From an uncultured Lentisphaeraceae bacterium (GTDB lineage: Bacteria; Verrucomicrobiota; Kiritimatiellia; RFP12; DVOR01), in assembly GCA_949282555.1 (NCBI GenBank), contig CASDPK010000009.1:1-64000 (forward strand): a DNA stretch of 64,000 nt. The letters are read 5' to 3'. The notes beneath the pieces were generated by a model that saw nothing but the letters and a program-made list of their open reading frames with translations, was not told the DNA's origin and did not search any database. A program made the position numbers and the translations under genes. Positions 46,948-64,000 of the stretch are shown here, piece after piece (position 1 is the first letter of the stretch; every line of letters begins with the position of its first letter).

Positions 46948-48096
46948 ATGCTAAAGGACGCGAAAGGCTACCGTTCGCCCTATATCAACGCGCTCAATGC
47001 CGCGGTGAAGGCCCAGCGTGTGGTGGGCGGGGATGTTGTGCCGCAGGAAGGGACATCGGGCACCCTGCTGTTCCTCGAAGGGACGCGCCGCGCCCGCCGC
47101 TTTGAGTTGTTCTTCGGCTTCGACACGGAGGCCGCTGGCTCGTCGGGCGCGGTGGATGCTTACTGCCTCGGCGACGGCACGCTCTACGTCGCCGCCGTGC
47201 CTGTCCTGCTCGTCCCGGGGCGCGACGTGTACCGCCGCGAAACGGGCCTTGCGCCGCGCGGCTCGGGGTGGTGCTCTCACAAGGTCATCGAGGGCGAGCA
47301 GACGCTGGAGTGGCTATGTTGCAGGTACCAAAACGAGTGGTATATCGTCGCGCGGAAGACCGACCCGAACCCGGAAAACTCCGAGAAGTTGGAAGACCTC
47401 CTGCCCGAAGACCTCGGGCCAATCCAGCCGGGCGAAGTCGAGCGCGTCTTCTCCTTCGGCGACTTCCACATCCCCGACCCATCCGGTCAAAATACGGTGG
47501 AGATTCGGCAATACGTCCGCTCAGATGTCTACTATGGTGGGGCTGGTCAGACGGAGACCGTCCAGCCCTTCACGCTCCGCATTCGCCTCGACAAGGAGAC
47601 CGTCCCGCCCGAGAATGAGGGCGACGAACCGACGACCAAGGAGACGGCCTATCTTGACATCTTCGACCCGCAGGGCGTGCGCCGCGTCCTTCTCAATGCG
47701 AACCTCGACACCGAGACTGAGGCGTTGGAGTGGGTGGATAAGCGCACGGAGTTGTCGGGCGGATGGTGGACGTTCGGGAAGGCCGACGACGCGCTCCCGT
47801 GGGCACCCTCCGGAACGCCCGGCCGCGACCGGTCCTTCGTCTTCGTGCAATTCCCCGAGGATGGCGAAAGCGGCTTCTATGTGCTTCTGAGCGATGTGCG
47901 GCCAACGCAAGAGGCCTTCCCACGCTCCGCGCTCATCGGCATAATCTACCGAACGGACAACTCGCCGGACGAGGAGGGGAACCCGCCCGAGACGGAGCAC
48001 TCCTACAGTTTCGTCCAAGCCAACGTGGGTGCCTTCGACCTTCGCAACCAATGGGAGGCGCAGGAGCGCGTCTTTGTCGCGCTGGGCGGGTCGTCG
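46948..48096 (+). pseudogene. Phage-type structural gene, 3' end lost to a deletion
   Basis: About 383 residues are plausible, from MLKDAKGYRSPYINALNAAV through YLDIFDPQGVRRVLLNANLD to VFVALGGSSED. At about 48090 the meaningful sequence ends; the frame then runs as proline/arginine-rich noise to 48381 while another frame takes up the integrase. The gene starts 9 bp after its neighbour with AGGAAGAG before the ATG. No family is recognised. Confidence 0.55.
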
Positions 48097-48506
48097 GAGG
48101 ACTTCGCCCCGCCGAGGCGGTGCGCCTTACGGCCACGGAGATTGGCGTGGAGTATATCACGCTGGGGGCATCGCAGACCAAGACCGCCTCCGCCCGCACC
48201 GTCGCCATCCGCCCCAACCTCCGCGCCATCCTTGACCGCCACCCAGTCCGCGAAAGCGTTACACAAGGACTCTCACCCGACCGATTCCGCAAGGTGCTGG
48301 TGGCCGTCGTCAAGGCATCGGGCATTCAATGGACGCAGGACGTGCTCCGCCACTCCTTCGCCTCCTACGCTTACGAGATGACCCGCGACGCGGCCTCCAC
48401 GGCCGCCGAGATGGGCCACCGGGGCACCGACGTGTTCTTCCGCCATTACCGCGGTTTGGTACCACCGGGAAGCGGAGCGAAGTGGTTCGCAATAGGCACC
48501 GATTAG
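48096..48506 (+). pseudogene. Tyrosine recombinase, catalytic C-terminal half only
   Basis: The catalytic residues are in order: GLRPAEAVRLT (Arg I), SQTKTASARTV (Lys), LRHSFASY (His/Arg II), AAEMGH (His III) and FFRHYRGLV (nucleophile Tyr). The N-terminal SAM-like core-binding domain and any start codon are missing, because the gene begins at the deletion joint with the preceding structural gene. The enzyme would have used tRNA-Thr as target. Its stop codon lies within the right AATAGGCAC/ATTAGGCAC pair. Confidence 0.8.
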
Positions 48507-48510
48507 GCAC
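48491..48510. promoter_or_regulatory. Right arm-type site pair of the element
   Basis: AATAGGCAC (48491-48499) and ATTAGGCAC (48502-48510) with the same 11-bp period as the left pair, here inside the end of the integrase gene. Confidence 0.5.
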
Positions 48511-48552
48511 ACGCGAGGAATATCTTGTTGAGATTCCGCGTTCTCTCGCTCT

Positions 48553-48597
48553 TTTGTAATCAGTGGGTCGCCGGTTCGAGTCCGGCCGCTGGCTCCA
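48553..48597 (+). repeat. attR: 45-bp direct repeat
   Basis: Exact copy of the last 45 bases of tRNA-Thr; this is a tRNA fragment, not a second tRNA gene. Confidence 0.9.
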
Positions 48598-48660
48598 TTT
48601 CCCCTTCACAGTGCCTCTTTTCCCCGTTATCCGCACGTTCCGGCGATGCCGCATGTGGAA

Positions 48661-54666: not shown

Positions 54667-54895
54667 GCAAATCAACTCCCTCCTAAAAAGCCTAAGGAGA
54701 GAGGAACGAGCGTATTATGTGAGCAAAACCATAAGCGCGTGCTGGTTTGCAATCACCTAAACTTGAATCAAACTTCTCAAATCCATTGCCAAACTTCTCA
54801 AATCATTTGAGAACCTGAAGCCTCATTTGAGAATTTGCACCCATTGCCAGTCGACTTCCCGACACGCACCTGGCACGGTGAAGCCCAGCACGAGC
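54664..54895 (+). repeat. Repeat unit, copy A (with half-site array A)
   Basis: About 230 bp that recurs at 56746-56975 (copy C), with the second half also at 56611-56745 (copy B). It holds CTAAAAAGCCTAAG, an ACGAGCGTATTATGTG stretch and the TTCTCAAAT array at 54774-54833. The SpoU-end-like stretch (CCTGGCACGG...) follows it at 54864. This region (54667-55014) holds no gene. Confidence 0.8.
54774..54833. promoter_or_regulatory. Half-site array A
   Basis: TTCTCAAAT at 54774-54782 and 54795-54803, then a one-base gap and ATTTGAGAA at 54805-54813 and 54825-54833. The centre is the perfect 19-bp palindrome TTCTCAAATCATTTGAGAA, flanked by outward half-sites at 21 and 20 bp, near two helical turns. 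Confidence 0.7.
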
Positions 54896-55014
54896 ACCAA
54901 TCCCTCACGAGGGCATCCACACGGAAGCCAAGTTCACAAAAGAAACCAAAGCCGACAGGCGGAAGCCTGCCAACTTTGGTTCGTGAGGGAAAGAAATAAC
55001 CGCAAAACGACTAC

Positions 55015-56508: not shown

Positions 56509-56610
56509 AACGCCACCTCCATTGAACTCCGTGACACCCCACAGGATACCAAAATTCATAAAATGCGTTGATAAAATTTCTTAAAACAGATCAAAATCCG
56601 TAAAGATTTA

Positions 56611-56745
56611 ACGAATCTTCTCAAATCCATTGTCAAACTTCTCAAATCATTTGAGAACCTGAAGCCCCATTTGAGAAGTTGCATTCATTGCCAGCCAACG
56701 CCCCGACACGCACCTGGCACGGCGAAACCTAGTCTTGAACGTTCG
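56611..56745 (+). repeat. Repeat unit, copy B (second half only)
   Basis: Matches the second half of copy A, including the array and the CACCTGGCACGG stretch, and lies just upstream of the AlbA-type gene's start. Confidence 0.75.
56618..56677. promoter_or_regulatory. Half-site array B
   Basis: TTCTCAAAT at 56618-56626 and 56639-56647; ATTTGAGAA at 56649-56657 and 56669-56677. Spacings are the same as in A. It is about 110 bp before the AlbA-type gene, and contains TTGACA on that gene's strand. Confidence 0.7.
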
Positions 56746-56975
56746 CGAATCAACGCCCTTCTAAAAAGCCTAAGAACAGAAAAACGAGCGTATGATGTGG
56801 GCAAAACCATAAACGCGCGTTGGTTCGCAACCCCCTAAACTTGAATCAAGATTGAATCAAAATTGAATCAAACGTCTCAAATCCATTGTCAAACTTCTCA
56901 AATCATTTGAGAACCTGAAGCCCCATTTGAGAAGTTGCATTCATTACCAGCCGATCCCCGGTACACTCCTAGCAC
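56746..56975 (+). repeat. Repeat unit, copy C
   Basis: Full-length relative of copy A, with small insertions of TTGAATCAA units. Confidence 0.75.
56874..56933. promoter_or_regulatory. Half-site array C
   Basis: GTCTCAAAT (one mismatch) at 56874-56882, TTCTCAAAT at 56895-56903, ATTTGAGAA at 56905-56913 and 56925-56933; same spacings as A and B. Confidence 0.65.
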
Positions 56976-56987
56976 ACCCTCTCATCC

Positions 56988-57050
56988 CCCCACCCACTTA
57001 GAGGCGCAGGCGAAGGATTCGGTGCGCCGACATCTGCGCCATAGGTGGGG
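56988..57050. ncRNA. Possible structured RNA segment
   Basis: CCCCACC (56988-56994) pairs with GGTGGGG (57044-57050); within it GGCGCAG pairs with CTGCGCC and an inner CGGTGCGCCG folds. A terminator-like hairpin with a T-run follows at 57070-57112. No promoter is convincing, so the direction is open. Confidence 0.3.
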
Positions 57051-57237: not shown

Positions 57238-57261
57238 CGAGGCACGGACACCCGTGCCTCG
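57238..57261 (-). terminator. Terminator of cassette 1
   Basis: CGAGGCACGG and CCGTGCCTCG arms around a 4-base loop; a run of T on the minus strand follows. The arm sequence is a relative of the perfect palindromes that end the other cassettes. Confidence 0.8.
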
Positions 57262-57285
57262 CTTTTCCTTCAATCTCAATTCGTG

Positions 57286-57825
57286 TTACGCCACGCGCCG
57301 CTTCAACGCAAGCCCCGCAACGCCCAACGCCAAGAGCGCCAGCACCGTCGGCTCAGGGATAGCCTGAACAGCCGTCCAATCTCTCGTCCCCTTGAATTGT
57401 TCGGCCGTCCAAACAACAGAGGTGGCTGCATCTGTACTCTCTTCATCATAAGGAGTCCCCGATTGCACAGAACTAATCATAACGTTCTGTCTCCCTTCGT
57501 CAAAGATAACAACAAAGAAGTCATAAGACGTGTGTGCCTCGATTCCGGCACCCAACACACTGATAGATCTCGAAACAATTCCATTTGCTGTCAAGTTTCG
57601 CGAAACCTCCGGAGCCACCCAAGTCCCAGCTTGGATACTCGCCAATGTTCCACTCGCCTCGTCAGTCCCACCAACGCACAAATACGCTACATAATTACTT
57701 AGATTTCCCCCCGCAGGTGAAGCCGCAACAGTCGCCGTAGGATTTCCACTCCCCCATGTGATAGCGGCCGCTTGAGCGATTCCTCCGAGAAAGAGAACCA
57801 ACGCTAAAATGAATGCTTTTTTCAT
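57286..57825 (-). CDS. PEP-CTERM protein of cassette 1
   Basis: 179 residues. A signal peptide (MKKAFILALVLFLGGIAQA) is followed by AITWGSGNP, the opening shared by all paralogues here (A-x-h-x-WG), a beta-rich body with YDFFVVIFDEGRQNVMISS, and the sorting tail IPEPTVLALLALGVAGLAL plus KRR. In PEP-CTERM/exosortase systems that tail is cut and the protein moved to the surface or matrix; no exosortase gene is in the window. AGGAAGG precedes the ATG, which lies 18 bp after the partner gene. Confidence 0.88.
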   Translation of the reverse strand: MKKAFILALVLFLGGIAQAAAITWGSGNPTATVAASPAGGNLSNYVAYLCVGGTDEASGTLASIQAGTWVAPEVSRNLTANGIVSRSISVLGAGIEAHTSYDFFVVIFDEGRQNVMISSVQSGTPYDEESTDAATSVVWTAEQFKGTRDWTAVQAIPEPTVLALLALGVAGLALKRRVA

Positions 57826-57843
57826 TGTAACCTTCCTGTTTCG

Positions 57844-58539
57844 TTACTTAGAGATACCATCAACCGACAACGTGGCTCCCGCCTGCGATGTCGTTAGCCA
57901 AAAACTTGCCCCTAGAGTGAGTTTCTCAGTCACTGGAACATAGTCCTTATCCAGCCACCCGCCATAATCTTTCCAGTAGGAATAAACAGCATACGTGTCA
58001 CCCTTCCTTACCTGTATCTCGTCCCCATCGGATAAACCACTCCAATTTGCGTTACTGTTCAAATCCAACGCAACAGGAAGCCCTAATGAGACCATTTGCA
58101 ACCCAGCCTCACTCACATACTTGTATTCACCAGCTACAACAGCACCTCGAAGGGTGATGTCAACTGAACGTCCCGGCGTCTTTAGCCAAAACGCCGTTCC
58201 CGGAACCAGTTTTTGTGTTGCAGGATTAAAGCTTTCGTCAAGCCACCCGCCGTAATCTTTCCAGTAGGAATAAATGGTATATCTATTTTCAAAGGGCTTA
58301 TCCTTGTTATAGACTTGAAGTTCGTCACCGTCTTGAAAATCCCCATCTATAACTTGTGCTACAGATTGAGGCTCCCCATCCAGTCCGGTAAAAACCGCCC
58401 CCAGCATATTGAATCCAGGAGTCGTTCTCACCGTCGTGTAACCGACGATGTCGCTTTCAACGGCGGCGGATAGACGCCCGTTAAAAAACAGCAGTCCCGC
58501 CAGTAGGGCTGCGCAAGCTAAAATTCGTTTGACGTCCAT
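57844..58539 (-). CDS. Secreted 'VGYTT' two-repeat protein of cassette 1 (intact head)
   Basis: 231 residues. Signal peptide MDVKRILACAALLAGLLFF, then NGRLSAAVESDIVGYTT, the conserved block, and two internal repeats, each with GDE(L/I)QV...YSYWKDYGGWLD followed by (A/S)FWL(K/T)T. Such 'VESDIVGYxT' secreted proteins recur in Kiritimatiellota and relatives; function unknown. This is the only one of the four visible copies with a ribosome binding site (GAGGAG), a start codon, a standard signal and a well-formed promoter (58643-58671), so I take it as the expressed copy. Confidence 0.8.
   Translation of the reverse strand: MDVKRILACAALLAGLLFFNGRLSAAVESDIVGYTTVRTTPGFNMLGAVFTGLDGEPQSVAQVIDGDFQDGDELQVYNKDKPFENRYTIYSYWKDYGGWLDESFNPATQKLVPGTAFWLKTPGRSVDITLRGAVVAGEYKYVSEAGLQMVSLGLPVALDLNSNANWSGLSDGDEIQVRKGDTYAVYSYWKDYGGWLDKDYVPVTEKLTLGASFWLTTSQAGATLSVDGISK
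58432..58482 (-). repeat. Conserved 5' block, copy 1
   Basis: Encodes NGRLSAAVESDIVGYTT. DNA is nearly identical to the blocks at 58991-59046, 61474-61539 and 62404-62468 (core ACGGGCGTCTATCCGCCGCC), while sequence beyond the block differs. Confidence 0.85.
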
Positions 58540-58642
58540 CTCTCTCAACTCCTCTCGCAGAGGCAAAAGCCTGACAAATCAGTCTTTCAACGGTGTTCAT
58601 CAACGCCTCGTGACTCCCTCTCGGGGCACGAACAACACCATC

Positions 58643-58671
58643 ATAGTAACATTGAGGTCTGTGACTTGCAA
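58643..58671 (-). promoter_or_regulatory. Promoter of cassette 1
   Basis: TTGCAA, 17 bases, TACTAT on the minus strand, giving a leader of about 100 bases. Confidence 0.6.
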
Positions 58672-58869
58672 GTAAAAAAGATGAAATATTCTTTTTGGTA
58701 CAGCGGGTTCATTGGCAACAGATACCTTCCTTTGGAGCGGTGTCTCCGTATGTTTTGCCACTCGGGTCACATGTTAGCACTCCTATTCTGTGCGCGTTTT
58801 AGCAAATACTTTCTTCAGCTTCTTCGATAGGGATATCCGAAGAAGTCCCTATATCCTGTTGGTTCCTCA

Positions 58870-58875
58870 TATAAT
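58870..58875 (+). promoter_or_regulatory. -10-like box toward cassette 2
   Basis: TATAAT is perfect but no -35 hexamer lies at the right distance. Confidence 0.35.
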
Positions 58876-58928
58876 ATGAAAACGTTGTCGGATTCTGTCT
58901 GAGATAGAGGCAGGTGCCATGATCCCCC

Positions 58929-59627
58929 ATGGAGAAAACTCGCCAAAACCCACTTATATCGGCCTTTGGTTCCTTTTTTGGCCATGTGAATCTAAACGGG
59001 CGTCTATCCGCCGCCGTTGAAAGTGATGTCGTTGGATACACGACGACAGCTTTGCCTCTTGGTTATTCTTTGGTTGGCCTTCCCTTCGATAGTCTTAATG
59101 GCAAAACCTCGCTTTCCATTCAAGATATCAGTATTGAGAATAGTCAAGTGGGTGATGTAATTCAATACTGGGAGAATGATCTTCTACAATCTGCCACATA
59201 TCGTATCCGCAATGGTGTGAGTGGTTGGTGGAAAAGTTTCACAGAACTCTCGACTAAGACATTTAGTCCGGGAGAAGGGTTTTGGGTTCGGAAAAATGCG
59301 GAGGGAAATCTTACTTTTTCCGGAAAGTTGGTGGATCTTGACAAGGTGACAACGATAACCGAAGCAGGCAAATTTGTCCTCATTAGTCCGAAACTTCCAA
59401 AAGAATATGCGGTCAATGATATTTTATTCGAGGGTATTTCAACTGGTGATCAAATCCAGTATTGGGATGGGGACAAGCTTGTATCGTTGACATATCGTAG
59501 TCGGGGCGACATCACAGGTTGGTGGAGTAATTTCACTACATTGTCGGATAAGGTGTTCGCTCCGACAGAAGGGTTTTATCTTTTGACTAAGACTCCTGTC
59601 ACCGTTAAGTTTCCTGACGTTCGTTAA
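58929..59627 (+). CDS. 'VGYTT' two-repeat protein of cassette 2, doubtful N-terminus
   Basis: 232 residues from ATG 58929. NLNGRLSAAVESDVVGYTTT is the block; two repeats follow (GDVIQYWENDLLQSATYRIR and GDQIQYWDGDKLVSLTYRSR, each with a GWW(K/S)xFTxLS and EGF(W/Y)). The first 20 residues (MEKTRQNPLISAFGSFFGHV) are unlike cassette 1 and are a poor signal peptide; no good ribosome binding site precedes the ATG. The body is intact, so this is either expressed from an odd start or a silent copy. Confidence 0.65.
   Translation: MEKTRQNPLISAFGSFFGHVNLNGRLSAAVESDVVGYTTTALPLGYSLVGLPFDSLNGKTSLSIQDISIENSQVGDVIQYWENDLLQSATYRIRNGVSGWWKSFTELSTKTFSPGEGFWVRKNAEGNLTFSGKLVDLDKVTTITEAGKFVLISPKLPKEYAVNDILFEGISTGDQIQYWDGDKLVSLTYRSRGDITGWWSNFTTLSDKVFAPTEGFYLLTKTPVTVKFPDVR
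58991..59046 (+). repeat. Conserved 5' block, copy 2
   Basis: Encodes NGRLSAAVESDVVGYTT; inverted relative to copy 1, 508 bp away. Confidence 0.85.
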
Positions 59628-59658
59628 AGAGAAATTCACAGCCTAAGGAAAAGTAATC

Positions 59659-60186
59659 ATGAAACTTCTTGTCGTTTCCATTAGCCTTTTTATCGCCAGC
59701 GTGATGCATGCCGCTTCCATCAAATGGGGGGTAATGGGCAACACAACGCCTATTACTACACCAAATGGCTCTATTGCATATTTCATTGAAAGTTCAGCTT
59801 CTCGTGAAAGTATTCTCAGTTCGATCGCGAATGAGTCCTTCGATTTTGGAACGGCTCTCGGCTCTGGTGTTGTGACGGATGGCAATGTGTATGACATAGG
59901 GACTGATGACAATTACTACGTTGCCTCTGCTGATTTGCCGGTAGGAACGGATTATAGCTTCTATGTTGTCATTTTTAACACAACTACGGCAGACGAAGCG
60001 ACGCAGTTCATATTAAGCTCAGAGTATGTTGCGAGTATTTACGAAGGTGATAATCCTCAAACCATTATCGATTTTGGCCCGAACGTGGACAGCGAAGGGT
60101 GGACAAGCATTGTGCCTGAACCTACCGCGTTGGCCCTTCTTGCGCTGGGCGTGGCTGGATTGGCCCTTCGCCGGCGTGTAGCGTGA
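59659..60186 (+). CDS. PEP-CTERM protein of cassette 2
   Basis: 175 residues. Signal peptide (LLVVSISLFIASVMHA), mature start ASIKWGVMGN, body with YSFYVVIFNTTTADEATQFI, and tail VPEPTALALLALGVAGLALR plus RR. AAGGAAAAG precedes the ATG. It lies 31 bp after its partner and ends at a palindromic terminator shared with cassette 3. Confidence 0.87.
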   Translation: MKLLVVSISLFIASVMHAASIKWGVMGNTTPITTPNGSIAYFIESSASRESILSSIANESFDFGTALGSGVVTDGNVYDIGTDDNYYVASADLPVGTDYSFYVVIFNTTTADEATQFILSSEYVASIYEGDNPQTIIDFGPNVDSEGWTSIVPEPTALALLALGVAGLALRRRVA

Positions 60187-60331
60187 TAATCGGATTCTTC
60201 AAAAGTGAACGAGGCGCGGAATTCCGCGCCTCGTTTCGTTTATTCGTCTGAAAGTAAGAACTTATGCCACACGGCGCTTCAACGCAAGCCCCGCAACGCC
60301 CAACGCCAAGAGGGCAAGCACCGTCGGCTCT
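60116..60331. repeat. Convergent hub 1 (copy of hub 2)
   Basis: About 215 bp holding the 3' ends of two converging PEP-CTERM genes and the palindrome. Near-identical to 63571-63785, with a few substitutions and a 2-bp longer palindrome in the second. Confidence 0.88.
60210..60233. terminator. Bidirectional palindromic terminator of hub 1
   Basis: A perfect 24-bp palindrome (CGAGGCGCGGAA and its complement) flanked by TTTCGTTT on one side and an A-rich stretch on the other. Confidence 0.8.
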
Positions 60332-60816
60332 GGAACAGGGATCTCCGACCATGCCAGCGTTCCGTCCGCGTTGAAATAAAGTTCGCCAACGTGTTCCGAA
60401 GAGCCAGGAAGTGTACCACCGTCAAAAAGTTCTTGGGTGTCACTAATTGCATAGTACCCACTGGAGACCTGCGACAAATCGGTTACATCCGAAGTAGTAT
60501 AAATAACCACGTAATAATACCCAGATCCTTCAGCCTTAAACTGAGAGTCTTGGTCTACGGTCGAGGTTATATAAATTCCTCCCACCTGAACACTTCCAGA
60601 CGCAATAAACGACGCTCCTGTTGTATCCCATCCAGAAGTCGCAGACCACGTTGGAATACTCCCTGTGCTACTTTCGACCATATACAAGAACGCCGTTCCC
60701 GTCCAATCGGTGGTTCCGGACGGCCCATTCACCGTCGAATCCGTTCCCCACGAAATCGAGGCGGAATACGCAAGCGTACCAACAAATGCAAGACATGCCA
60801 AAATAAACGTCTTCAT
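60262..60816 (-). CDS. PEP-CTERM protein of cassette 3
   Basis: 184 residues. Signal (MKTFILACLAFVGTLAYSAS), mature start ISWGTDSTVNGPS, body with YYYVVIYTTSDVTDLSQVSS, and tail VPEPTVLALLALGVAGLALK plus RR. AAGGAA lies before ATG 60816. It follows its partner by 27 bp. Confidence 0.87.
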   Translation of the reverse strand: MKTFILACLAFVGTLAYSASISWGTDSTVNGPSGTTDWTGTAFLYMVESSTGSIPTWSATSGWDTTGASFIASGSVQVGGIYITSTVDQDSQFKAEGSGYYYVVIYTTSDVTDLSQVSSGYYAISDTQELFDGGTLPGSSEHVGELYFNADGTLAWSEIPVPEPTVLALLALGVAGLALKRRVA

Positions 60817-60843
60817 GGCTGACCTATTCCTTCTGTTTACCAC

Positions 60844-61530
60844 TCATTGAGCCGGGGAGGAAAACTCAAGTGTTCCATTCGAGCGCATCTTATTGAATAC
60901 AAAGCATTCATCGGCAGAGATACTATCTGTCGTGACCTCTGCCTCCACCGTGCCATCAGCACCCACTTTGTGCCATCCGGTGGTTGTCAGAACGTAAGAC
61001 GTGTACGCTTTTGTCGTGGGATCGAGACGCTGGAGCGTATCAGCCCTACTTGGATTATCGTTTGCATAGAGTGTTCCAGCGAGCGAGCTGATAGCCATTG
61101 AGACAGGATATGGATTGGCGACAAGATTGAGGCCACGCTTGAGCGTCACGCTCTTAGATGACTCCGAAAGGACTTCTCCTGCCGCAAGAATTGAGCCCGC
61201 TTCACGATTCTTATAAAGAAAAACTCCTTGCCCTGGGGCAATGACATCTGTTGTGACAGTGTCCTCACCATCTTTTGTCCACCCTTGGGTCTTATAATAA
61301 TACGTTGTGTAGGCTTTCGTGTCAGGATCTTGCACTAAAAGATAATCCGCACGCGCAACATTGTCATTCGCATAAAGATTCCCAGAGAGCTGAGCGATTG
61401 GATATCCCTCTTGGGAACCCTCTAAGGACAAAAACGGAACCGCAAGGGCAAAGAAGCCACGGGGAAGTGACGTCGTCGTGTAGCCGACGATGTCGCTTTC
61501 AACGGCGGCGGATAGACGCCCGTTTAGATG
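60844..61530 (-). pseudogene. 'VGYTT' two-repeat gene of cassette 3, without start codon
   Basis: From HLNGRLSAAVESDIVGYTTT the frame is intact to its stop and encodes two repeats (LYANDNVARADYLLVQDPDT and LYANDNPSRADTLQRLDPTT, each then TKAYT and GW). Upstream the frame stays open but has no ATG, GTG or TTG with a ribosome binding site; that DNA is the promoter and first codons of the antitoxin gene on the other strand. It should be silent unless recombined onto an expressed head. Confidence 0.7.
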
Positions 61531-61539
61531 CGCAGAAGG
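61474..61539 (-). repeat. Conserved 5' block, copy 3
   Basis: Extends further than copies 1 and 2: with copy 4 it shares CTTCTGCGCATCTAAACGGG before the core, about 65 bp in all. Inverted relative to copy 4. Confidence 0.85.
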
Positions 61540-61554
61540 TATGTGAAGATGTGT

Positions 61555-61560
61555 TATAAT
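61555..61560 (+). promoter_or_regulatory. Extended -10 box of the toxin-antitoxin operon
   Basis: TGTTATAAT (TGn plus perfect TATAAT), 22 bases before the antitoxin start; the -35 is poor. Confidence 0.5.
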
Positions 61561-61582
61561 CAAAACCAGAAGGAGGGCCGCG

Positions 61583-61750
61583 ATGATTCCTACAACATCT
61601 GATTCTGTCGCGCAAAGACAGTTGATGGAAGCGCTTCGCGCCGCGCAAAAGAAGATTGTCGCTGAAGGAAAACGTGCACAGTCTTGCATAGAGGAACAAC
61701 GGCGACGGGCCATCGCCGAACGCGCAAAGTTGCTTTGGGGGGCGAAGTGA
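61583..61750 (+). CDS. Putative antitoxin (55 aa) of the zeta-type toxin
   Basis: MIPTTSDSVAQRQLMEALRA continues as an alanine/arginine-rich helix (QRRRAIAERAKLLWGAK). The size, helical nature and coupling to a downstream kinase fit an antitoxin. AAGGAGG lies 6 bases before the ATG. Its stop overlaps the toxin start (GTGA). No known antitoxin family is recognised. Confidence 0.6.
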   Translation: MIPTTSDSVAQRQLMEALRAAQKKIVAEGKRAQSCIEEQRRRAIAERAKLLWGAK

Positions 61751-62373
61751 AGCCTCGCTGTCTTGTCGTTGCCGGGCCGAACGGTTCCGGAAAGACATCC
61801 ATTACGGAACAATTGCATGAATTAAAGCATCGATGGATGTTGGGATGTGAATATATCAATCCCGACAAAATCGCAGAGGAGCAGTTTTCCGGATGGAACG
61901 ATGCCGCCTCTATTCGCTTGGCCGCGGAAAAGGCCGAGTCCTTAAGGGCATTATGCTTAAAAGAGCGACGAGATTTTGCCTTCGAGACGGTCTTTTCCGT
62001 TCGTCAAAAAGTGGACTTCCTTCGCGAAGCAAAAGAATGCGGCTATTTTATCCGCTTTTTTTTCGTTGGGACGGATACGCCACTCATCAATGCGGCTCGT
62101 ATCGCCAAGCGTTACATTAATGGCGGTCACACGGTACCTATTGAAAAGGTCGTTGACCGTTATAGTCGCTCTATGGCAAATGCGCTTGAGGCCGCAACAT
62201 TTGTTGACCGCGCCTACTTTTATGATAATTCTGCGGAATTTCAAGACGGCGTAAACCCAGAATGGACGCCCCTGTTTCGTACGCAAGACGGGTGTCTTTG
62301 TGAAAAATATCCCCGACCCACCCATGCTTGGGCTCAAGAAATCTACGATCGTTTGAAATTCCACACCCTCTGA
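61747..62373 (+). CDS. Zeta-toxin-family AAA kinase
   Basis: 208 residues. RCLVVAGPNGSGKTSITEQL is the Walker A loop; YINPDKIAEEQFSGW, DFAFETVFSVRQKVDFLREA and RIAKRYINGGHTVPIEKVVD with RYSRSMANALEAA follow in zeta order. Zeta toxins phosphorylate UDP-N-acetylglucosamine and so stop wall synthesis; this small member may have another target. The start is GTG 61747, overlapping the antitoxin stop. The module lies between inverted copies of the conserved block. Confidence 0.85.
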   Translation: MKPRCLVVAGPNGSGKTSITEQLHELKHRWMLGCEYINPDKIAEEQFSGWNDAASIRLAAEKAESLRALCLKERRDFAFETVFSVRQKVDFLREAKECGYFIRFFFVGTDTPLINAARIAKRYINGGHTVPIEKVVDRYSRSMANALEAATFVDRAYFYDNSAEFQDGVNPEWTPLFRTQDGCLCEKYPRPTHAWAQEIYDRLKFHTL

Positions 62374-62393
62374 CCTCCTTTCATAACCAATAA

Positions 62394-63065
62394 AAACGTT
62401 CCTCTTCTGCGCATCTAAACGGGTGTCTATCCGCCGCCGTTGAAAGCGACATCGTTGGATACACGACAAGAGAATTCTCGAAAGGTGTCCATTTACTTTC
62501 TATCCCGTTTGAGGATTTAGAGGGAGCAGAGGAGGGTTTTCCCATTCAAAAAATTGAGGGAACCTTTACTGCAGGAACACTTTCAGGGGATCAGTTGTTG
62601 GTATGGGATCCAGGATTAGGGCAATATACGTCCTATCGTTATACAAAGAATGGGTGGACCAAAGGAGGGATCTTAACAACAGATGTGATTTTTCCCACTC
62701 AGAGTGCCTTTTTGATGGCGGCTAAGCAGGCGATCTCGGTTACTTGCGCGGGAAGGGTTGTTTCGGAGGAGGAGACAAGAATTCCGTTGAGCAAAGGAAT
62801 TAATTTTGTTGCAAATCCGTATGCAACAGATTATCCGATCAAAGAGATAAAAGGAACATTGACGGCAGGTACTCTGCGAGCTGACCAATTACAGCGTTGG
62901 GATAGTGGAACGTCCCAATATGTGGTTTACAGGTACACAAATGATGGTTGGAAGAAGACAGGTGAAAGTGATGTAACAACGGATATTCTTGCCGCAGGTG
63001 AGGGTTTTGTAATCTCAAAACCTGTTTCGGATGGCGAACTTGTCTTTCCTTCTCCTTTAAAGTGA
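62394..63065 (+). pseudogene. 'VGYTT' two-repeat gene of cassette 4, without start codon
   Basis: The frame opens after a TAA at 62391 and reads HLNGCLSAAVESDIVGYTT, then two repeats (TFTAGTLSGDQLLVWDPGLG and TLTAGTLRADQLQRWDSGTS). No ATG, GTG or TTG lies between that stop and the block; the first ATG is well inside. There is no signal peptide. The coding body is otherwise intact, as expected of a donor cassette. Confidence 0.7.
62404..62468 (+). repeat. Conserved 5' block, copy 4
   Basis: About 65 bp, nearly identical to copy 3 in inverted orientation; the two flank the toxin-antitoxin pair. Confidence 0.85.
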
Positions 63066-63088
63066 GTAATAGTAAGAAAGAGGTCTCA

Positions 63089-63640
63089 ATGAAAAAGGTT
63101 CTTTTCTTTTTGTCTGTTTTACTTTCTAGTCTTCCCGTTTTCTCAGCACAAGTAAGTTGGGGGTTAGAGAGCGACATTTCTGGGCCGGGAGGCGATGTCC
63201 TTACCTCTGGTGTGGTGTATTTGGTGGAAGTCCCTTCCTCCGGGAATCCTCCAGAATATGTTCCTACCGATAATAAATGGAACATGAATGGTGGTACCAT
63301 TCTCGCTTCTTCTACGTATAATGAAGGGGTATGGGGACAGGTAGACCAGGTCTTAGGGAATGAGTTTTCGAAACAAAATGCCTATTATTTAGTTTTTACG
63401 ACACAGAATGGTGTTGTTTCAGACTTTGATGACCTCGTAGCAGGTTCAAGTGTCCTTATCTCCTCAATTCAAGGAGATGTCACGATCACACCCGATCCAA
63501 CTGGAAGTGGAAATGATGTCGTGATGGTGTTATGGGATGACGTTTCAGGAACGTGGCAAACTGTCGTTCCTGAGCCAACGGCATTGGCCCTTCTTGCGCT
63601 GGGCGTGGCAGGATTGGCTCTTCGCCGGTGCGTAGCGTAA
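63089..63640 (+). CDS. PEP-CTERM protein of cassette 4
   Basis: 183 residues. Signal (MKKVLFFLSVLLSSLPVFSA), mature start QVSWGLESDISGPGG, body with YYLVFTTQNGVVSDFDDLVA, and tail VPEPTALALLALGVAGLALR plus RC: one Arg of the usual RRR is Cys. ATG 63089 has AAAGAGGT 6 bases away; an earlier GTG overlaps the partner's stop. It ends at hub 2. Confidence 0.86.
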   Translation: MKKVLFFLSVLLSSLPVFSAQVSWGLESDISGPGGDVLTSGVVYLVEVPSSGNPPEYVPTDNKWNMNGGTILASSTYNEGVWGQVDQVLGNEFSKQNAYYLVFTTQNGVVSDFDDLVAGSSVLISSIQGDVTITPDPTGSGNDVVMVLWDDVSGTWQTVVPEPTALALLALGVAGLALRRCVA

Positions 63641-63785
63641 TAATCGGATTCTTCAAAAGTGAACGAGGCGCGGAATATTCCGCGCCTCGTTTCGTTTATT
63701 CGTCTGAAAGTAAGAACTTATGCCACACGGCGCTTCAACGCAAGCCCCGCAACGCCCAATGCCAAGAGGGCAAGAATAGTCGGCT
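63571..63785. repeat. Convergent hub 2 (copy of hub 1)
   Basis: Near-identical to 60116-60331, in the same orientation, about 3.45 kb away; the segment between carries cassettes 3 and 4 and the toxin-antitoxin genes. Confidence 0.88.
63664..63689. terminator. Bidirectional palindromic terminator of hub 2
   Basis: A perfect 26-bp palindrome (CGAGGCGCGGAAT and its complement), two bases longer than that of hub 1. Confidence 0.8.
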
Positions 63786-64000
63786 CGGGGACACTAATCC
63801 ACCCACCCACATCGCCGTCAATGGTAGCCGAAATCCCGTACGTTTCATCCGTTTCCCAAAGGACGGTCGATTGTGGATCCGTCTCACCAAACGTTTCGCC
63901 TGTTTTAACGGAACTAATCATTGCCCATCCCTTTGTTGCGTCGAAAATTACCATATAAAACGAAAGCGTTCCATCCGACAGTCCCGAAGCAACAGATGTG
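63718..64000 (-). CDS. PEP-CTERM protein of cassette 5, cut by the window end
   Basis: The C-terminal 93 residues are visible: SFYMVIFDATKGWAMISSVK, then GWISVPEPTILALLALGVAG and LALKRRVA. The start and partner gene lie beyond 64000. Orientation is again opposite to cassette 4. Confidence 0.83.
   Translation of the reverse strand, partial: TSVASGLSDGTLSFYMVIFDATKGWAMISSVKTGETFGETDPQSTVLWETDETYGISATIDGDVGGWISVPEPTILALLALGVAGLALKRRVA

Follow-up and report, generated by a model that had tools for sequence, protein, structure and literature searches.

A candidate surface-protein switch of one expression site and four silent VGY/PEP-CTERM cassettes in an uncultured member of the Kiritimatiellota

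One expression site and four silent cassettes

The stretch of DNA analyzed here (the window) comprises positions 1 to 64,000 of contig C9 (CASDPK010000009.1) of an uncultured Lentisphaeraceae bacterium, whose genome of 2.43 Mb is assembled in 65 contigs. At its right-hand side we find an array of five two-gene cassettes (approximately C9:57286-64957, extending beyond the window end), each consisting of a gene of the VGY family and a gene for a PEP-CTERM protein. The best explanation overall, which we consider probable, is a surface-protein switch in which four silent cassettes accompany a single expression site; that only one expression site exists, and that switching takes place through recombination at a short shared sequence, is held with slightly greater confidence. 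One segment of 512 bp, lying head-to-head between two dyad sites, carries the sole promoter, ribosome site and start codon together with the first 19 codons of the signal peptide, and a cassette has to be joined to this segment to be translated with a signal peptide.

The initial annotation described five cassettes in strict - + - + - order, with a PEP-CTERM gene 18-31 bp behind the VGY gene in each of the four cassettes complete in the window. Both statements were borne out: the fifth cassette proved complete when the contig was read beyond the window, and the gaps in the five cassettes amount to 18, 31, 27, 23 and 24 bp. The features of the array are as follows (window coordinates, unless C9 is given).

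57286..57825, minus: cassette 1 PEP-CTERM gene (179 aa), second gene of the operon, with its own start and signal peptide (PF07589, 1.2e-5)
57844..58539, minus: cassette 1 VGY gene (231 aa), the sole copy with ribosome site, ATG and signal peptide (MDVKRILACAALLAGLLFF-NGRLSAA)
58471..58482, minus: site 1 (AACG-GG-CGTCTA; exact match, dyad), start of the shared block inside the signal-peptide codons
58483..58994, minus: expression segment between head-to-head sites 1 and 2, with promoter, 5' untranslated region, ribosome site and first 19 codons; inverted arms; proposed invertible unit
58643..58671, minus: promoter-like TTGCAA-N17-TACTAT, conserved at the expression site of congeners and not found upstream of silent copies
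58995..59627, plus: cassette 2 VGY body, silent, from site 2 (58995-59006) to the stop, without a Shine-Dalgarno-led start
59659..60186, plus: cassette 2 PEP-CTERM gene (PF07589, 1.2e-6)
60099..60352, no strand: 3' hub with tail-to-tail PEP-CTERM ends, hairpin terminator at 60207-60236
60262..60816, minus: cassette 3 PEP-CTERM gene
60844..61524, minus: cassette 3 VGY body, silent, from site 3 (61513-61524)
61582..61749, plus: small open reading frame (55 aa), possible antitoxin and array cargo, with a good ribosome site; overlaps the zeta-toxin gene; no Pfam match
61747..62373, plus: zeta-toxin family gene (PF06414, 2.4e-7), cargo between head-to-head sites 3 and 4
62418..63065, plus: cassette 4 VGY body, silent, from site 4 (62418-62429, AACGGGTGTCTA), no start codon after an in-frame TAA
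63089..63640, plus: cassette 4 PEP-CTERM gene
63553..63793, no strand: second 3' hub copy, terminator at 63661-63692
63718..64000, minus: cassette 5 PEP-CTERM gene, cut by the window end (full gene C9:63718-64272)
outside the window, minus: cassette 5 silent VGY body from C9:64297, with site 5 at C9:64945-64956

Only cassette 1 possesses a promoter, ribosome site, ATG and signal peptide, and the block that it shares with the other copies runs from codon 20 onwards (AAC GGG CGT CTA). Copies 2-5 have ATCTAAACGGG in common, and the DNA upstream of that element is unrelated. In copies 4 and 5 an in-frame TAA immediately precedes the block and there is no start codon, and copy 5 is situated directly downstream of the terminator-like hairpin of the neighboring operon. 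The VGY genes of the four cassettes complete in the window had initially been designated as secreted; this applies to cassette 1, the sole complete secreted VGY protein, and not to cassettes 2-5, which lack a Shine-Dalgarno-led start as well as a signal peptide. The same division recurs in the genus. Among the 26 copies surveyed in seven genomes, seven are of the expressed kind, exactly one per genome (7/7); in all of these a Shine-Dalgarno motif is present and the ATG precedes the site by exactly 19 codons. A Shine-Dalgarno-led start was found in none of the other 19 (0/19). The silent copies nevertheless retain long intact frames in both genes.

A motif of the form TTGNNN-N17-TANTAT is present at the same place of the expression segment in five species (the present one, G008, G007, G011 and G015), and a related but weaker sequence in G001 and G005. 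Since the promoter was not flagged by a generic sigma-70 scan, its assignment rests on this cross-species conservation. One could argue that all cassettes are expressed, via unrecognized promoters or non-canonical starts, and that the block merely reflects a protein constraint on the cleavage site. The open frame upstream of cassettes 2 and 3 and the family-wide conservation of the residues AAVESDIVGY fit such a reading. Considering the in-frame TAA before cassettes 4 and 5, the absence of a Shine-Dalgarno-led start from all 19 silent copies, and the fact that the 15-bp site and the residues it encodes vary between species yet not within genomes, we regard it as exceedingly improbable.

The junction site

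The pattern of conserved ends and variable middles reported initially was confirmed when the identities were computed. The 48-nt 5' block is 88-98% identical among the copies of this genome and the 254-bp 3' hub, which is present twice, 92%, whereas the bodies share 40-52% of their DNA (VGY bodies 40-51%, with 23-44% at the protein level; PEP-CTERM bodies 41-52%). The block starts abruptly inside the signal-peptide codons and the DNA upstream is unrelated at each copy. A search of the whole genome with a 78-nt block query recovered the five array copies alone at E < 1e-10, and all five occurrences of the exact 12-mer AACGGGYGTCTA in the 2.43-Mb genome fall within the array. Given this restriction to the five copies, the pattern is not a matter of chance. 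The tail-to-tail cassette pairs have the hub in common, with a strong hairpin terminator (stem of 13-14 bp), and hubs and units recur at a spacing of around 3.45 kb. The head-to-head pairs enclose 512 bp (cassettes 1 and 2) and around 0.9 kb (cassettes 3 and 4).

The start of every cassette is marked by the shared site AAACG-GG-CGTCTA, inside the signal-peptide codons. The site varies between species, both in sequence and in encoded residues, and not within genomes: over the first 15 nt of the block, copies from one genome of the genus agree at 99%, as against 64% for copies from different genomes, whereas the VGY and PEP-CTERM bodies show 45% identity in both comparisons. In every lineage the site forms an inverted repeat around a 2-bp center in constant register, as in AACG-GG-CGTC of the present genome, AACG-GT-CGTT of G011, AACG-CC-CCTT of G008, G001 and G005, and AACC-CT-CGTC of G007. 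The clearest example is a near-perfect 26-bp form in G015 (GGCGTTTAAACG-CC-CCTCTAAACGCC). The 10-bp arms score 4-8 against a background mean of 2.58. Counted over 12 arm positions, matches reach 10/12 in G015 and G004. Elsewhere in the genome we found four scattered single AACGNNCGTYTA sites and no second inverted pair.

This dyad resembles the target of the Mpi serine invertase of Bacteroides, for which inverted repeats of the sequence ARACGTTCGTN have been reported (PMC8375218). The arms fit the published repeat (AAACG..CGT), but the core is GG, GT, CC or CT depending on the lineage, and the arms deviate in the G008, G001 and G007 lineages.

Rearrangement between related genomes

The congeners that possess such an array are Kiritimatiellae assemblies from the gut, with sheep rectum and roe deer caecum among the sources. 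The most informative pair is formed by G001 and G005, in which the outer flanks of the array are around 90-94% identical. On the left flank, around 70 nt are identical to and through the site, after which the bodies are wholly different (40-57% identity), and the expression segment, together with a neighboring gene group, is inverted between the flanks. The type of body found at the expression site differs among species. Furthermore, the orientations alternate strictly in 6/6 multi-copy arrays of the genus, for which the chance is around 8e-6 under random orientation; inversions between opposite sites preserve this alternation. The contig of G011 ends within the block of its expressed copy, which suggests mixed junctions, although the repeat alone could cause such a break.

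A plainer explanation, also put forward in the initial annotation, is the duplication of a divergent 3.4-kb unit followed by drift, in which case the silent copies would be decaying pseudogenes and there would be no switching. The recurrent spacing of the units and the residues conserved throughout the family speak for it. It fails on the single start-bearing copy in 7/7 genomes, on the abrupt shared 5' edge and on the homogeneity of the site within genomes whose bodies are as diverged as those between genomes. The intact frames in both genes of the silent copies, as well as the fixed flanks, different bodies and inverted expression segment of G001 and G005, also contradict it, and we deem it very improbable. 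The suggestion that the array switches by inversion, excision or gene conversion fared better: switching is supported, with inversion as the best supported route, while excision and gene conversion were not shown. Inversion presumably takes place in living populations.

Candidate recombinase and spread across the order

No recombinase was found among the open reading frames of the array. The genome does encode a full-length serine invertase assigned to the Mpi family (contig C58, 5139-5792, minus strand; E 7.3e-81). Its match to NF009949 reaches 270.7 bits at a cut-off of 272 and covers positions 1-195 of the 203 of the profile, which makes it a borderline member in this genome; 12 congeners exceed the cut-off, and their copies fall well within the family. 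Within the genus, NF009949 was found in 10/10 genomes with the site and in 3/7 genomes without it (Fisher p 0.015). A natural control is provided by G016, which has one complete VGY gene and neither the site nor Mpi. We think it rather likely that an enzyme of the Mpi family performs the switching. The tyrosine recombinase domain PF00589 gave three matches in the genome, on C2, on C10 and as a fragment below cut-off at C9:48096, around 9 kb from the array. The latter integrase fragment (48096-48449) was set aside as array recombinase, as it scores below the Pfam cut-off, looks like a prophage remnant and adjoins what resembles the 3' end of a tRNA; the region (window 48096-48600) is probably a prophage remnant.

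The proposed enzyme would cut at the 2-bp core and invert the DNA between oppositely oriented sites. A flip of the 512-bp segment would thus replace cassette 1 by cassette 2, and larger inversions, for instance between sites 2 and 3, would bring further cassettes beside the expression segment. Owing to the position of the site within the signal-peptide codons, every incoming body would be fused in frame to the signal peptide, and an exported VGY protein would be exchanged along with a PEP-CTERM protein.

The VGY family is present in 92/162 genomes of the order. In several other families of the order (genomes G061, G024, G045, G089 and others), arrays combine a single copy that has a signal peptide with copies that lack a start. 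The junction in these arrays is sharp, specific to the lineage and located close to where the signal peptide ends; when these junctions were examined for dyads, no clear common pattern emerged. A scan of viral contigs with the block pattern returned nothing.

The same switch could also operate without a dedicated recombinase, if block and hub served as substrates for gene conversion or for homologous recombination that depends on RecA, as described for the sap locus of Campylobacter fetus. This route needs no particular junction sequence and therefore fits the differing junctions of the other families, and block and hub are indeed homogenized within the genome. The shared stretch however measures only around 45-65 bp, the dyad with its 2-bp core in fixed register matches a known invertase target, and Mpi accompanies the site in the genus, so that we consider the RecA route unlikely as the explanation here.

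Several observations weigh against an inversion system driven by Mpi. The Mpi gene is located on a contig other than that of the array and scores just below the curated cut-off in this genome, and the core dinucleotide is GG here versus TT in Bacteroides. Mpi also occurs in G002, G003 and G014, in which no VGY array was detected; it may control other invertible loci there, or the arrays may be unassembled. In other families of the order the junction sequences differ and Mpi is rare (4/145 genomes), and G061 has an Mpi gene, yet a junction without the ACGnnCGT form. Given these differing junctions and the rarity of Mpi, another enzyme or homologous recombination must serve those arrays: either the recombinase and its site have been replaced as a pair, or the assignment of Mpi within the genus is weaker than it appears. 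In addition, the calls of signal peptides and Shine-Dalgarno motifs were based on simple rules, and the inversion itself was not observed, the rearrangement being known between species only.

Proteins and cargo of the array

The VGY proteins comprise around 210-230 residues and two beta domains (AlphaFold2 model of the cassette 1 protein, with a predicted local distance difference test score, pLDDT, of 88); a structure search with this model gave no PDB match at E < 0.001. The two halves of every VGY protein are alike, including the variable loop motifs (in cassette 1, for instance, YSYWKDYGGWLD is present twice), an indication that they evolve in concert. The model of the PEP-CTERM partner is of moderate quality (pLDDT 78). 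All five hub-proximal genes (5/5) show PF07589 over cut-off at the C terminus, which identifies the products as proteins with a PEP-CTERM sorting signal. We infer that the VGY and PEP-CTERM proteins form a changeable coat, and such a change might be directed against phage or host.

The zeta-toxin gene and the small upstream reading frame, a toxin-antitoxin-like pair (61582-62373) between cassettes 3 and 4, occupy the spot that elsewhere is held by the promoter segment. An inversion that used sites 3 and 4 would turn the pair around, and the pair might help to retain the array in the manner of an addiction module. Because of this cargo an integron-type array was considered; it was rejected in view of the alternating orientation and the short dyad junction, which by eye is not attC-like. 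The array of G008 (L036 11411-14509, G008:C6) contains two GmrSD-type restriction genes, and arrays may thus carry defense cargo. A gene of the 8xMP membrane protein family is found within the arrays of G001 (L038 9388-10134, G001:C12) and G005 (L040 17511-18266, G005:C2), in opposite orientation relative to the flanks. Close to cassettes of the same two genomes (G001 L038 15631-16298 and G005 L040 12498-13085) there are degenerate PEP-CTERM ends in other frames, possibly the remains of lost cassettes. Directly left of the array in the window, a Schlafen/AlbA_2 ATPase gene is flanked by repeated intergenic segments of 105-126 nt that are 71-87% identical (54667-54897 and 56607-56988), one copy of which has a perfectly symmetric AACGCGCGTTTA (56810-56821, minus strand).

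Comparison with known systems

In the vsa locus of Mycoplasma pulmonis there is one expression site, the silent genes have no promoter, and a site-specific inversion places the promoter, the ribosome site and the 5' part of the coding region in front of a silent 3' part (PMC2268961). The present array is like vsa, and like vpma of M. agalactiae and vsp of M. bovis, in that a single copy has the promoter, ribosome site and start and a short recombination site is found at every junction. In those systems the recombinase is of the tyrosine type (HvsR, Xer1, Mbr), its gene is found close to the locus, and the switched units are individual genes for lipoproteins, whereas the candidate here is an unlinked serine invertase, the units are two-gene PEP-CTERM operons and the joined part is a 19-codon signal peptide. 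Since the nearby tyrosine recombinase is lacking, we class the array as a variant of single-expression-site switching and not as a vsa/vpma member. In the sap locus of Campylobacter fetus, which encodes S-layer proteins, there is one promoter, the promoterless homologs share a conserved 5' region and a promoter-bearing segment inverts. That inversion is RecA-dependent and proceeds over several hundred bp of homology, as compared to tens of bp with a dyad site here.

The Mpi enzyme of B. fragilis acts on distant regions (PMC4747536). Like in its global promoter inversion, the gene of the candidate serine recombinase is situated away from the putative targets, and the repeats approximate the ARACG-NN-CGT form. 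In Bacteroides, however, every locus has an on/off promoter to itself. In the present array several cassettes depend on a single expression segment, the site is part of a coding sequence and the dinucleotide at the core is a different one. Invertible promoters (invertons) next to PEP-CTERM genes (group 138) have been described for Akkermansia muciniphila (PMC11892184), which belongs to a related phylum; the passages of that report consulted here describe no array of cassettes served by a single expression site with a signal peptide. The earlier remark that no such PEP-CTERM system had been described therefore has to be narrowed: phase-variable promoters near PEP-CTERM genes are known from Akkermansia, and to the extent that this source covers the matter the remark still holds for a single-expression-site cassette array. 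None of the papers searched joins Kiritimatiellota with phase variation or with PEP-CTERM.

Significance

Considering the arrays in other families, we lean slightly towards an order-wide family in the Kiritimatiellota, with one signal-peptide-bearing expression site and silent VGY/PEP-CTERM cassettes, in which junctions, and probably recombinases, differ by family while the layout is conserved. The use of DNA inversion to switch antigens at one expression site is familiar chiefly from a small number of host-adapted pathogens, the mycoplasmas among them. If our interpretation is correct, the principle would extend to commensals (uncultured gut Kiritimatiellota), to exosortase-type PEP-CTERM proteins and to a likely serine invertase, with relatives across the order. 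PEP-CTERM proteins of unknown function would then gain a concrete role, as a changeable coat.

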